From assembly GCF_000251145.1 (NCBI RefSeq), contig NZ_AIDW01000036.1:1-64000 (forward strand): DNA of 64,000 nucleotides, in the 5' to 3' direction. This DNA comes from Sphingomonas sp. PAMC 26621. Its GTDB lineage: Bacteria; Pseudomonadota; Alphaproteobacteria; Sphingomonadales; Sphingomonadaceae. The first letter of the stretch is position 1. Each line of letters opens with the position of its first letter. The notes under the pieces were generated by a model, which saw nothing but the letters and a program-made list of their open reading frames with translations, was not told where the DNA came from and ran no database searches. Shown here one piece after another: positions 8,623 to 14,585 of the stretch. Both the position numbers and the translations under genes were made by a program.

Positions 8623-8705
8623 GAGATATCCCCGGGGAAAGCTGTACGCGACACGGGGCCGGGCACGATTGTCTGTTGCCCCATCCCTTCCCATATTGCT
8701 CGGTG

Positions 8706-10912
8706 ATGGCAATCCAGATTCGCACCACGCTCGATGAACCCGAAACCGGGGTCAGCTTCGTCCCCCACCGCCCGGCGCGGCCGCCCAAGGCGGAAGGGGG
8801 CAAAAGGTTCAAGCTCGTCTCCGAATACACCGCGGCGGGCGACCAGCCGACTGCGATCGCCGAGCTCGTCGCGCAGACGCAAGCCGGCGAGCGCGACCAG
8901 GTGCTGTTGGGCGTGACGGGTTCGGGCAAGACCTTCACCATGGCGAAGGTGATCGAGGCGGTGCAACGCCCCGCGCTGATCCTCGCGCCCAACAAGATCC
9001 TCGCGGCGCAGCTCTACGGCGAGATGAAGTCGTTCTTCCCCGACAACGCGGTCGAGTATTTCGTCAGTTACTATGATTACTACCAGCCCGAGGCGTACGT
9101 CGCTCGGTCGGACACGTATATCGAGAAGGAAAGCTCGACCAACGAGGCGATCGACCGGATGCGCCACGCCGCGACCCGCTCGCTGCTCGAACGCGACGAC
9201 GTCATCATCGTCGCGTCGGTATCGTGCCTCTACGGCATCGGCTCGGTCGAGACCTATTCGGCGATGATCTTCGACCTCAAGAAAGGCCAGACCGTCGACC
9301 AGCGCGAGATCGTGCGCAAGCTGGTCGCGCTCCAGTACAAGCGCAACGATGCGGCGTTCCAGCGCGGCAATTTCCGCGTGCGCGGCGATGCGCTGGAGAT
9401 CTTCCCGTCGCATTATGACGACACGGCATGGCGCGTGTCGTTCTTTGGCGACGAGATCGAGGATATCGTCGAGTTCGATCCGCTGACCGGCAAGAAGATC
9501 GCGAGCCTCGGCACCATCCGCATCTACGCCAATTCGCACTATGTGACGCCGGGGCCGACGCTCAAGCAGGCGATGGAAGCGATCAAGTTCGAATTGTCCG
9601 AGCGGCTCAAGGAGCTGGTGCCCGAGGGCAAATTGCTCGAGGCGCAGCGGCTGGAACAGCGCACCAATTTTGATCTCGAGATGATCGCAGCGACGGGTTC
9701 GTGCGCGGGGATCGAGAATTACTCGCGCTTCCTCACCGGGCGCATGCCCGGCGAGCCGCCCCCCACGCTGTTCGAATATCTGCCCGAGAATTCGTTGCTG
9801 TTCGTGGACGAGAGCCACCAGACGATCGGCCAGATCAACGGCATGTCGCGCGGCGATCACCGTCGCAAGCTGACGCTGGCCGAATATGGCTTCCGTCTGC
9901 CCTCGGCGATCGACAACCGGCCGCTGCGCTTCAACGAATGGGAGGCGATGCGTCCGCAGACGACCTATGTCTCGGCGACGCCGGGTGCGTGGGAGATGGA
10001 ACAGACCGGCGGCGTGTTCGCCGAGCAGGTCATTCGCCCGACCGGGCTGATCGATCCCCCCATCGAGATCAAGCCGGTCGAGGAGCAGGTGCAGGACCTG
10101 ATCGTCGAGGCCCGCAAGACCGCCGAACTCGGCTATCGCACGCTGGTGACGACGCTGACCAAGCGGATGGCGGAGGATCTGACCGAGTTCATGCACGAGG
10201 CGGGCCTGCGCGTCCGCTACATGCACAGCGACGTCGAGACGCTCGAGCGTATCGAGCTGATCCGCGACTTGCGGCTTGGCGTGTACGACGTGCTGATCGG
10301 ATCAACCTGTTGCGCGAGGGGCTCGACATTCCCGAGTGCGGGCTGGTCGCGATCCTCGATGCGGACAAGGAAGGCTTCCTGCGCTCGGAAACCTCGCTGA
10401 TCCAGACGATCGGTCGTGCAGCGCGCAACGTCGACGGGCGCGTGATCCTCTATGCCGACCGCATCACGGGCTCGATGGAGCGCGCGATGAACGAGACCGA
10501 GCGTCGCCGCGAGAAACAGCGCGCGTATAACGAAGAACACGGCATCACGCCGACCACGATCAAGCGCAACATCGGCGACATCATCCAGGACGTGTCGAGC
10601 CGCGATCAGGTCACGGTCGAGATCGACGAGGACCGGCCGCACATGGTCGGGCACAATTTGCGTGCGTACATCGAGGATCTCGAGAAGAAGATGCGTGCGG
10701 CGGCATCCGACCTCGAGTTCGAGACCGCCGGTCGTCTGCGCGACGAGATCCGGCAGCTCGAGCAGGAGGAGCTCGGGCTTCCGGTCGATCAGCAGAAGGC
10801 GCCGGTGATGGGGCGCTCCAACGAGGGCAAGCCAGGGACTCGCAAGACGCGGTACGGCAAGAGCCAGAAGATGCGGGCGGGTATGGCGGGGAGTTCGCGA
10901 CGGGCGCGGTGA
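8706..10912 (+). pseudogene. uvrB: UvrABC system protein B, split by one missing base
   Basis: UvrB is the damage-verifying helicase of nucleotide excision repair, loading on DNA with UvrA and then recruiting UvrC. From ATG 8706 the protein shows Walker [10 protein letters not shown], the beta-hairpin [10 protein letters not shown] and DESHQ. Near 10299 it shifts frame within YDVLIG; the next frame continues exactly as expected ([23 protein letters not shown]) to a C-terminal UVR motif. The consensus GGGATC reads GGATC here, so one G is missing; with it the gene encodes a normal protein of about 735 residues. As read, the product lacks helicase motifs V-VI. A sequencing error is likely, since loss would make the cell UV-sensitive. 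Confidence 0.93.
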
Positions 10913-10990
10913 TTGGGGAATGCAAAATTGAACAGTGTCGGGCTGGCGTGGTAAGTTTCGCACTATGCCCGAAACTGCGAGATCGTGCCG

Positions 10991-11245
10991 ATGACCCGCA
11001 CCGCGAAACTTTACTCTTGGATATTGGCCAACCCGCGATCGGCTATTCCATTCCGTGACTTTGAGCGACTACTGGCTGCGTTTGGCTTTTCGCTCAGGCG
11101 AACGACGGGAAGCCATCGTCAGTACGCGCACCCTAAAGTCCCCCACGTCTTGACCGTCCAGCCCCACGGCAAGGACGCCAAGACCTATCAAATCGAGCAA
11201 TTTGTCGCTATGTGTATCGGGTACGGTCTTACATTGGACGAATGA
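10991..11245 (+). CDS. hicA: HicA-family toxin (dsRBD-like mRNA interferase)
   Basis: 84-residue protein from ATG 10991. The C-terminal half has the HicA fold signature: LRRTTGSHRQYAHP with the catalytic His 42 in GSH, then VLTVQPHGKDAKTYQIEQF. It is a toxin that cleaves mRNA in translation and is neutralised by the adjacent HicB. Its TGA overlaps the ATG of the next gene (ATGA). The longer GTG start at 10985 adds only two residues. Base composition is clearly lower in GC than uvrB next door, which suggests acquisition. Confidence 0.8.
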   Translation: MTRTAKLYSWILANPRSAIPFRDFERLLAAFGFSLRRTTGSHRQYAHPKVPHVLTVQPHGKDAKTYQIEQFVAMCIGYGLTLDE

Positions 11246-11463
11246 TGGCACCGCGATACCATATCGACCTGTTTTGGTATGAGCCCGACTCGTGCTGGAT
11301 CGCGAACGTGCCGGATCTCAGAAGCTGCTCGGCGCACGGCGATACGCCCGAAGAGGCGCTTGCGGAGCTTCAGATCGCCATGGAAGGTTGGTTAGAGACA
11401 GCGAGGGGGTGCGGTATCGCGATCCCTGAACCGCAATACCGTCACACAAGCCTGGCCGCTTAA
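11242..11463 (+). CDS. hicB: HicB-family antitoxin (short form)
   Basis: 73-residue HicB-like protein. YHIDLFWYEPDSCWIANVPDLRSCSAHGDTPEEALAEL-type sequence is the partial RNase H-like fold shared by HicB antitoxins. It lacks the C-terminal DNA-binding domain of longer HicBs, so autoregulation may need another factor. It starts at ATG 11242, overlapping the hicA stop by 4 nt, in the usual toxin-first order. It converges on the PRC-barrel gene. Confidence 0.82.
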   Translation: MMAPRYHIDLFWYEPDSCWIANVPDLRSCSAHGDTPEEALAELQIAMEGWLETARGCGIAIPEPQYRHTSLAA

Positions 11464-12517: not shown

Positions 12518-12654
12518 AGCCGGCGCTCCCGGCGCGCTTCGGGCAGGCCGAGGAGAATCGTCGAATCTGCGGATTATTACAAGACTTGTTTCGCGAATTT
12601 AGATGATTCAAACACGAGTCGTGACCAGCGCAGGTCACGCTATTTTCAACTGGC

Positions 12655-12669
12655 GAAAGGAGGTGATCC
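12655..12669 (+). promoter_or_regulatory. 15-nt Shine-Dalgarno fully complementary to the 16S rRNA 3' end
   Basis: GAAAGGAGGTGATCC is the exact reverse complement of the conserved 16S 3' terminus GGATCACCTCCTTTC. GGAGG ends 7 nt before an ATG at 12671. Ordinary genes here use 4-6 matching bases, so this site is extreme. A 6-bp palindrome (GTGACC at 12621-12626, GGTCAC at 12633-12638) lies just upstream. Confidence 0.6.
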
Positions 12670-12670
12670 G

Positions 12671-12727
12671 ATGTCTCATGGTTCAGCAATGGGGTCGGTT
12701 CAGTTCGTGCGGGGGACGCACCGCTAG
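12671..12727 (+). CDS. Possible 18-codon leader or small peptide
   Basis: ATG 12671 follows the extreme Shine-Dalgarno and encodes MSHGSAMGSVQFVRGTHR, then TAG. About 130 nt of further sequence, then a strong terminator at 12858, complete a transcription unit of about 250-300 nt. In another frame, 12728-12848 continues as coding-like sequence ending QREAAIEALAVRMVSQAG, so a frameshifted longer protein is also possible. No family is recognised. The alternative is a small RNA that binds ribosomes through the site. Confidence 0.4.
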   Translation: MSHGSAMGSVQFVRGTHR

Positions 12728-12857
12728 GCCTTTGGGGAAACCCGTTCGATCGCCGGCGCGGGGGGTATGGTCCCCCAGTCAACGCGAAGCGGCGATCGAG
12801 GCACTAGCGGTTCGCATGGTCTCCCAAGCTGGAGCTTCCGGCCGCTGACCATGTCAG

Positions 12858-12900
12858 GAGGTTGCCGGGGTGTCGTGAAGACCCCCGGCAGCCTCTTTTC
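12858..12900 (+). terminator. Strong intrinsic terminator
   Basis: 13-bp stem GAGGTTGCCGGGG (12858-12870) / CCCCGGCAGCCTC (12883-12895), with one G-U pair and a 12-nt loop, followed by TTTT. It ends the small transcription unit that precedes the amidase gene. Confidence 0.85.
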
Positions 12901-13007
12901 ATTTGGGGTGCCGCGCGACCTCTGAAAAAAGCCCCGTCCCCCCGCTTGTTGTCCTGCAAGGATGATCGCATGATCGGCGTCTCGAACGATAAAAGGGGAT
13001 GACGGGC

Positions 13008-14585
13008 ATGCGGATACGGGCAGCGTTTGCGGCGATGGTGATGGTTTCCGCGGCCGCTTCGGCGCAACAGGCCCCCGTGGTCGAGGAGCAGTCGATCGAC
13101 GGCTTGCGCGCGCAACTGGCGCACGGGACGAGCAGCGTCGCGATCACCCAGGCCTATCTTGCGCGGATCGCGGCGATGGACCGCACCGGGCCGACGCTCC
13201 GCGCGGTGATCGCGACCAACCCCGACGCGCTCGAGCAGGCCAAGGCCAGCGACGCGCGGCGCAAGGCCGGCAAGCCGCTCGGCCCGCTCGATGGCATCCC
13301 GGTGCTGATCAAGGACAATATCGAGACGAAGGATCCGATCGCAACGACCGCGGGGAGCCTCGCGCTCAAGGACAACGTGACGCGGCGCGACGCGCCCGTG
13401 GTCGCGGCGTTGCGCAAACAGGGCGCGGTAATCCTCGGCAAGACCAACCTCAGCGAATGGGCGAACATCCGCTCGACCCATTCGATCAGCGGATGGAGCG
13501 CGGTCGGCGGGCTGGTGCGCAACCCCTATGCGCTCGACCGGACCTCGTGCGGCTCCTCCAGCGGGTCGGGCGCGGCGGTCGCGGCGAGCTTCGCGGCGGT
13601 GGCGATCGGGACCGAGACCGACGGGTCGGTCGTCTGCCCGTCGTCGATGAACGGGCTGGTCGGACTGAAGCCGACGCTCGGGATGGTCAGCCGTAGCCGT
13701 GTCGTCCCGATCAGCCACAGCCAGGATACGCCCGGGCCGATGGCGCGGAGCGTGCGCGATGCCGCGTTGCTGTTCAACGCGATGGTCGGGGTCGATCCCG
13801 AGGACGCGGCGACGCGCGACAGCCGGACGCATCTCCACGATTTCGCCGCCCCGCTCGCGACCGCATCGCTGTCGGGCGTGCGCGTCGCGGTCCTGCGGCC
13901 CGACATGTCCGACGTGCTGAAGGCAAAGTATGAGGCATCGCTCGCAGTGCTCAAGGCGCAGGGCGCGGTGCTCGTCGACGTCGAGACGCCCAAGCTCGAC
14001 GGGATCGGCGAGGCCGAGCTGCTGGTGCTCCAGACCGAGCTCAAGGCCGATCTGGATACCTATCTCGCGACCACGCCAGCGGCGGTGAAGACGCGGACGC
14101 TGGATCAGGTGATCGCATTCGACACCGCCAATGCCGCGAGCGAAATGCCGTTCTTCGAGCAGGAGACGTTCGTTGCCGCCGCGAAGACGCGGGGGCTGCG
14201 CGATCCGGAATATCTCGGTGCGCGCGCGAAGTCGCTGCGGCTGGCGGGTGCGGAGGGGATCGACGCGCTGCTGGCGAAGGCGCAGGCGACGCTGATCGTC
14301 GCGCCGACCTACGGGATGCCGTGGCTCTCCGACACCGTCTACGGCGACAATTTCAATGGCCCGAGCGCGAGCGAATTGCCTGCGATCTCGGGCTATCCGC
14401 ATCTGACCGTCCCGATGGGGCTGGTGCGCGGGGTTCCGGTCGGCCTGTCGTTCATCGCGACGCGCTGGGGGGACCAGACCGTGCTCAACGCGGGCTATGT
14501 GTTCGAACAGGCGGCCAAGGCGCGGGTCGCGCCGGGGTATCTGGCGACCAACGATGCCGGGCCAGGGCTGGCGGGCGCGCGGTAA
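13008..14585 (+). CDS. Secreted amidase (amidase-signature family)
   Basis: Amidase-signature hydrolase with the Ser-cisSer-Lys triad: K102 in LIKDNI, cis-Ser 183 in CGSSSGSGAA, and nucleophile S207 in ETDGSVVCP. Residues 1-19 (RIRAAFAAMVMVSAAASA) are a signal peptide, so it acts in the periplasm, unlike the GatA relatives. ATG 13008 has AGGGG at suitable spacing; an ATG 9 bp earlier abuts that site. Residues 160-225 carry the rest of the glycine/serine signature. Substrate unknown; amide or aryl-amide scavenging is plausible. It follows the terminator at 12858 and stands alone. Confidence 0.9.
   Translation: MRIRAAFAAMVMVSAAASAQQAPVVEEQSIDGLRAQLAHGTSSVAITQAYLARIAAMDRTGPTLRAVIATNPDALEQAKASDARRKAGKPLGPLDGIPVLIKDNIETKDPIATTAGSLALKDNVTRRDAPVVAALRKQGAVILGKTNLSEWANIRSTHSISGWSAVGGLVRNPYALDRTSCGSSSGSGAAVAASFAAVAIGTETDGSVVCPSSMNGLVGLKPTLGMVSRSRVVPISHSQDTPGPMARSVRDAALLFNAMVGVDPEDAATRDSRTHLHDFAAPLATASLSGVRVAVLRPDMSDVLKAKYEASLAVLKAQGAVLVDVETPKLDGIGEAELLVLQTELKADLDTYLATTPAAVKTRTLDQVIAFDTANAASEMPFFEQETFVAAAKTRGLRDPEYLGARAKSLRLAGAEGIDALLAKAQATLIVAPTYGMPWLSDTVYGDNFNGPSASELPAISGYPHLTVPMGLVRGVPVGLSFIATRWGDQTVLNAGYVFEQAAKARVAPGYLATNDAGPGLAGAR

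Follow-up and report, generated by a model that had tools for sequence, protein, structure and literature searches.

The 64,000-nt stretch of Sphingomonas sp. PAMC 26621 DNA analyzed here (the window) carries an element that we read as an independent gene for a bistable, structured micro-mRNA. It would be a divergent paralogue of the CC2171 RNA in which exposure of the Shine-Dalgarno sequence (SD) and the act of translation matter, and not the encoded peptide; we put the probability of this reading at about one half. Comparison with relatives shows a full complement of the 16S rRNA tail, a start codon spaced from it in the ordinary way, an open reading frame (ORF) that is kept and short, a covarying helix (P0) that involves the early codons, and an ORF that tends to be complementary to its own SD (helix P1). 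Such an anatomy would fit a micro-mRNA that masks its own SD and is controlled by the docking of ribosomes, a step from anatomy to function that we infer.

A complement of the complete 16S tail

The SD of the element, GAAAGGAGGTGATCC, is complementary over 15 nt to the entire 16S 3′ tail GGATCACCTCCTTTC, the whole stretch beyond the last 16S helix. The 4.77-Mb genome has just one further exact copy of GAAAGGAGGTGATCC, the antisense of the 16S 3′ end, and the 10-nt core AGGAGGTGAT occurs ten times, the element and the 16S antisense included, against three for a reversed control. The duplex between the SD and the 16S tail is computed at -26.8 kcal/mol, versus -10.1 for AAGGAGG. Across 199 relatives, the match ends at the borders of the motif, with variable bases before and after it, and the first G and last C are kept in 97% and 95%, neither being forced by the pattern used for collection. 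The sequence-only reading had described this full match, an 18-codon ORF well spaced from it, a 6-bp palindrome upstream, and a terminator hairpin; all four are found (Table 1), the hairpin being terminator-like and the start-codon spacing ordinary. The observation of an element matching the complete 16S tail is real.

Table 1 Parts of the element, in window coordinates.
Feature	Position	Strand	Basis or remark
5′ hairpin GTGACC-N6-GGTCAC (palindrome)	12621–12638	+	precedes the SD
CAAC box	12647–12650	+	common directly 5′ of the SD; opens the RF01867 match
Predicted helix P1, 5′ strand: SD and start codon	12652–12673	+	computed pairing and folding
Extended SD, complement of the complete 16S 3′ tail	12655–12669	+	genome search, alignment
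18-codon ORF MSHGSAMGSVQFVRGTHR and TAG	12671–12727	+	ATG 12671, stop TAG 12725–12727
Helix P0, 5′ strand: codons 3–6, CAUGGUUCAGC	12677–12687	+	
Predicted helix P1, 3′ strand: 16S-tail (anti-SD) mimic within the ORF	12688–12709	+	computed pairing and folding
Helix P2, 5′ strand: final ORF codons	12712–12724	+	pairs with 12807–12824, compensatory changes
Hairpin P3	12759–12776	+	compensatory changes
Helix P2, 3′ strand	12807–12824	+	includes CAUGGUC (12815–12821), repeat of start-region sequence
Strongly conserved 3′ block GCATGGTCTCCC...GGCCGCTGACCATG	12814–12855	+	alignment
Helix P0, 3′ strand GCUGACCAUG, 5′ of the terminator	12844–12853	+	last 7 nt double as the P5 3′ strand
Intrinsic terminator	12857–12899	+	long GC-rich stem, compensatory changes, then TTTT

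Matches to the element were found in 59 of 61 congeneric genomes, and in 55 of the 55 that are at least 90% complete, the strain's own genome included. Positions 12653–12688, which span the SD, the ATG, and the next 15 bases, are invariant in an alignment of 30 of the 59 matching genomes, the window among its rows. A 306-nt stretch folds with a z-score of -7.55, and none of 100 shuffles folds equally well. A chance conjunction of an SD with a terminator is ruled out by the conservation in congeners, the fold z-score, and the invariant segment. The sequence-only reading had called for a conservation search and had named missing conservation, along with a missing transcript, as the outcome that would count against it; the search found conservation, which supports the proposed transcription unit with its full anti-SD match, tiny ORF, and terminator.

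Kinship with the CC2171 RNA and spread among bacteria

At Rfam gathering thresholds, no family matches anywhere in the window. A permissive threshold brings out RF01867, the Caulobacter sRNA CC2171, which matches 12647–12897 from the first to the last model position (E = 3.7e-5), scoring 31.7 bits in a 361-base search and 26.2 bits in a 501-base search and in the genome scan, far short of the gathering threshold of 75 bits. Seven weak matches to other Rfam families, up to E = 10, were taken as chance. The window element and CC2171 share a 5′ module, CAAC...GAAAGGAGGUGAUCC-N-RUG-UCUCAU in the family, that is, the CAAC box, GAAAGGAGGTGATCC, and a start followed by TCTCAT. Both also have a helix between the start region and the pre-terminator segment (CAUGGUUCAGC with GCUGACCAUG in the window, UCAUUGUC with GACAAUGG in the CC2171-like copies) and an intrinsic 3′ terminator. 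The window type differs in its greater length (about 250 nt versus 159 positions) and in its additional P2, P3, and conserved 3′ block. Judged by these features, the window element is a divergent, sub-threshold relative, or paralogue, of the CC2171 RNA. Copies resembling CC2171 are termed type 1 here, and elements of the kind seen in the window type 2. The strain's own genome holds a second, closer copy (G000:C45:64412–64562, locus L042), a type-1 element of 71.2 bits with a 24-codon ORF, MSHCQMPLAARFTGLASNIEVALG.

The Rfam consensus line for CC2171 shows P0 and not P1, and the family name gives no ORF. All seven RF01867 hits over the cut-off (L033–L039) carry the SD, which deviates by one base in L036, and an ORF of 22–26 codons. 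In Rfam 15, the RF01867 entry has gained one covarying pair (PMC11701678). A predicted sRNA of Mesorhizobium huakuii assigned to RF01867 has, as we read the table of that paper, an RNA-seq product of 215 nt (PMC5596092), suggesting that a relative is transcribed. In the accessible portions of the CC2171 literature, which did not include the 2008 Caulobacter sRNA paper, neither an ORF nor complementarity to 16S rRNA is described. As far as these sources go, RF01867 is a known but seemingly unexplained RNA family, beside which the window type stands as a divergent variant.

Searches at E ≤ 0.01 returned RF01867 in 56 of 240 alphaproteobacterial genomes, seven over the cut-off, with hits near the limit possibly due to chance. 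Two of 14 control genomes also had a hit, Caulobacter vibrioides and Deinobacterium chartae, the latter not an alphaproteobacterium; one of the two was over the cut-off. The pattern AAGGAGGTGRTC-N1-3-RTGTC was found in 59 of 289 genomes of Alphaproteobacteria (reversed control, 2) and, by table count in a sample of the phylum, in 53 of 86 members of the class and 8 of 213 others, compared with 2 of 299 for the reversed control. Carriers among the matches listed include Sphingomonas, Novosphingobium, Sphingobium, Erythrobacter, Brevundimonas, and Methylobacterium, as well as Bosea, Microvirga, Rhizobium, Roseomonas, and Azospirillum. These matches indicate that relatives of the element span several orders of Alphaproteobacteria. 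By our own count within the order, a narrower pattern occurs in 56 of the 70 genomes that belong to the same family as the window, compared with none of 48 from other families. Some sphingomonads hold two paralogues. A third pattern hit in the strain's own genome (C6:8588) looks like an ordinary gene start, with a frame read as at least 70 codons, and was set aside. Origin as a mobile element or phage gene was likewise rejected, a plasmid collection having no match to 12640–12900; in a viral collection the SD-start pattern occurs in two contigs.

A short ORF and covarying helices

The ORF is kept short. Among 199 distinct elements, 196 stop by codon 35, as do 64% of shuffles, and the other two frames stop within 35 codons in 132 and 124; a stop at codons 14–30 is present in 96% of elements versus 27% when shuffled. 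The type-2 stop lies directly after codon 18 in 71 of 75 elements and is written as TAA (34), TGA (27), or TAG (10), and this use of three codons indicates that the stop itself is kept rather than one base string. The type-2 peptide is not conserved, with pN of 0.146 above pS of 0.066 (1196 overlapping pairs, 86 elements), and substitutions in its final codons track helix P2. The type-1 peptide is mildly conserved (pN 0.074, pS 0.122, 11 pairs). In our view, what is under selection is translation and RNA structure rather than the type-2 peptide.

The earlier suggestion of high expression of a tiny protein is thereby weakened for the window's type, whose amino acids give no sign of purifying selection. 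In its general form, this alternative holds that the element is a plain small mRNA whose strong SD drives high synthesis of a functional peptide of 18–26 residues, the structure stabilizing the message. The kept ORF and start site fit it, as do the motif MSHC...TWI-AS of many type-1 members and their pN below pS, and 48 novel translated small ORFs are reported from S. meliloti (PMC10117765). We nevertheless regard it as unlikely: type-2 pN exceeds pS, and five typed peptides fell below every Pfam and NCBIfam cut-off, the window 18-mer being too short to scan. The motifs, too, can be read as RNA: TW would correspond to CTGGATC, which is complementary to the spacer sequence GATCCAG next to the SD, and EQP would correspond to TGGAGCA-CCT, so that P1 pairing would also account for their seeming conservation.

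The sequence-only reading had further noted coding-like sequence in another frame after the stop. An 81-aa open frame does exist there, but it is not conserved, and the frameshift proposed to reach it finds no support, the distance from the stop to the 3′ block falling in all three phases (36, 22, and 15 of 73). A programmed frameshift was rejected, the +1 frame being open for 25 codons in 31 of 75 elements and the +2 frame in 17 of 75. Three Azospirillum elements (L180, L207, L219) have an ORF lengthened to 57–59 codons that by eye resembles a secreted peptide.

Helix P0 pairs codons 3–6 with the bases just 5′ of the terminator. In type 1, an element's own 3′ strand beats strands swapped in from other elements in 77 of 85 representatives (p = 4e-11), and at positions +7 to +12 the Watson-Crick pairs are of three or four kinds. 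Variants include CAUUGUC/GACAAUG, CAUCG/CGAUG, AUGAGAUU/AAUCUCAU, and CACCAAA/UUUGGUG, some of the listed pairs being chance because the register was chosen per element. When 6 or more pairs are required, with a start no later than +8, 59 of 85 representatives have the helix versus 37.4 when swapped, and it is present in only 12 of 34 type-1 representatives that lack the common CATTGT start (2.9 when swapped). The type-2 helix (CAUGGUUCAGC/GCUGACCAUG) is near-invariant (own 15.2, swapped 15.1), so type 2 alone cannot test covariation. The signal is clear only within the pre-terminator segment, which excluded the 31 of 158 representatives whose terminator was not clear; over 200 nt the search gave little signal, with type-2 own and swapped strands equal. 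In the pairing tests for P0 and P1 and in the fold-energy survey, the type-2 label was set by ATGTCTCATGG, a criterion that among its 90 elements also captures four of a different build, three being from Azospirillum. On comparative grounds, a covarying helix links codons 3–6 to the pre-terminator segment. Covariance analysis, which the sequence-only reading had proposed, shows P0 covarying in type 1 and compensatory changes in P2, P3, and the terminator.

Stems of differing letters occupy the site of the 5′ hairpin in many Sphingomonas relatives. The best type-2 stem between -64 and -22 scores 16.3 versus 12.6 for shuffles, and 31 of 42 type-2 representatives exceed their own shuffles; type 1 gives no signal at this site (55 of 103 above their own shuffles).

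Helix P1 would pair the SD and its spacer with a mimic of the 16S tail inside the ORF. Examples of the two strands are GATCCAG/CTGGATC, GATCCTG/CAGGATC, and GATCTGAT/ATCAGAGC, and mimics include CTGGATC...CCTC facing GGAGGTGATCCAG and TATCAGAGCAACCTTT facing AAAGGAGGTGATCTGAT. With 7 of 158 representatives excluded (long ORF or too few comparators), the element's own ORF paired with its SD better than did ORFs from other spacer classes in 107 of 151 representatives (p = 2e-7), and not better in 44. This and the other p-values given for P0 and P1 are too small, since the elements were collected largely through the SD-start pattern and share descent. Mean z-scores were -1.13 for type 1 and -1.43 for type 2 against synonymous recodings, and -1.36 and -1.84 against codon-order shuffles. 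In the raw class-by-class matrix the own class was strictly best in 1 of 10 rows, we think because GC-rich ORFs pair with anything. Once the means of rows and columns had been subtracted, own pairing exceeded expectation in 133 of 156 cases (p = 2e-17), and in 29 of 37 among the rare spacer classes (p = 5e-4), with the own class best in 3 of 6 rows. Some members show little or no P1 signal, among them L036, L041, and the second copy in the strain's own genome, L042. ORFs thus appear to have a tendency, statistical and uneven, to encode a 16S-tail mimic complementary to their own SD. In L033–L039 and others, the internal mimic CTGGATC..CCTC resembles the 16S 3′ end itself, CTGGATCACCTCC; such a type-1 mimic might pair with the SDs of other mRNAs too.

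Rival folds, genomic context, and significance

The best fold of the window element contains P0 (-152.0 kcal/mol) and leaves the SD with a mean unpaired probability of 0.54. Imposing P1 gives -148.2 kcal/mol, a cost of 3.8 kcal/mol, and the 3′ domain then refolds unprompted into a hairpin, P5, which pairs 12815–12821 with 12847–12853 and uses the start-region repeat and the 3′ strand of P0. Inspection by eye gave no obvious P5 in relatives from Novosphingobium or Erythrobacter. The two states lie within 5 kcal/mol in 40 of 85 type-1 and 32 of 42 type-2 representatives, and the state with P1 has the lower energy in 15 of the 85 and 11 of the 42; these energies exclude pseudoknots, and P0 together with P1 would be one. 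The two helices may coexist. The computed folds indicate that the RNA probably adopts two rival shapes, which hide or expose the SD.

We propose that the RNA toggles between an open state, with P0 formed and the SD available to the 30S subunit, and a closed state, with P1 formed and the SD masked. Docking of the 30S subunit and translation would keep the RNA open, the ribosome displacing the closing strands, and in type 2 what is conserved would be translation as such rather than the sequence of the peptide. The output would be exerted in trans, through the stability of the RNA itself, through the conserved 3′ domain as a regulator, or through 30S capture. A tentative extension, which we hold to be possible though on the unlikely side, is a class-wide RNA switch with the ribosome as its ligand, in which the free 16S tail competes with the ORF-encoded mimic, so that the RNA reports 30S availability, or 16S-tail integrity, and stays open once translated.

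The computed duplex energy, the start of P0 at about +6, within the initiation footprint, and the partly unpaired SD would also suit a ribosome-parking decoy, whose 15 base pairs and helix after the start codon capture 30S subunits instead of using them. In a pure decoy, neither the stop nor the length of the ORF would have to be conserved, but both are, and an SD-masking mimic would be superfluous; we consider this explanation quite unlikely.

SD-masking thermometers and translational riboswitches pair the SD with an internal anti-SD strand and have two states, and RNA thermometers use imperfect SD-masking helices. The modeled element resembles these systems in its internal anti-SD strand and two states; it differs in that this strand lies within the ORF and resembles the 16S tail, and in that the unit appears to stand alone. 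That heat melts P1 and opens the SD is scarcely probable: the window P1 is an imperfect SD-masking helix, but no heat-shock gene lies downstream in the window, thermometer families are missing among the Rfam matches, and the type-1 P1 is often long and GC-rich.

Wide flanks were compared at 38 loci, 19 per type, with 25 families listed. Upstream of type 2, uvrB recurs in 11 of 19 loci and an ORF of about 180 aa in 10–12. Downstream, an amidase, at 12999–14585 in the window, is found in 3 of 19 (L127, L128, L139), and no other listed family is found in more than three. Type-1 loci share an adjacent ORF, among the families listed, only between L114 and L118, and upstream. Downstream genes are thus mostly not conserved, which argues for a stand-alone gene and against the leader peptide in cis that the sequence-only reading had put forward. 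The parts of an attenuator for the amidase are there, namely a short ORF, rival helices, and a terminator, and in three loci so is the gene; with the amidase missing from most loci and the terminator closed in both window folds, we judge a cis leader or attenuator very improbable.

In the same neighborhood, the window uvrB (8676–10912) runs over two frames, one encoding the N-terminal and helicase domains and the second the UvrB and UVR motifs; the interruption, near 10.3 kb, is a sequencing error or marks a broken gene, and in 11 related loci a single ORF of 729–944 aa matches both parts. At 10985–11463, a HicA toxin-like ORF over the Pfam cut-off overlaps a second ORF, which matches UPF0150 and has a HicB-like match below threshold.

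Like the micro-mRNA proposed here, whose transcript is predicted, rnTrpL/peTrpL of S. meliloti is a short transcript with a small ORF. It is leaderless and precedes trpE (PMC10117765), whereas the element has a complete SD and mostly lacks a common downstream gene. In Caulobacter, an SD is reported in only 24.6% of coding sequences, and two formerly predicted ncRNAs were found to be translated (PMC4117421). The members of a curated "sRNA" family may actually be micro-mRNAs that are translated, mask their own SD, and are tuned to the complete 16S tail, and sphingomonads with two paralogues allow them to be studied within one cell. Should the switch prove real, it would amount to a natural RNA that senses initiating ribosomes, within a class that includes the SD-poor Caulobacter.
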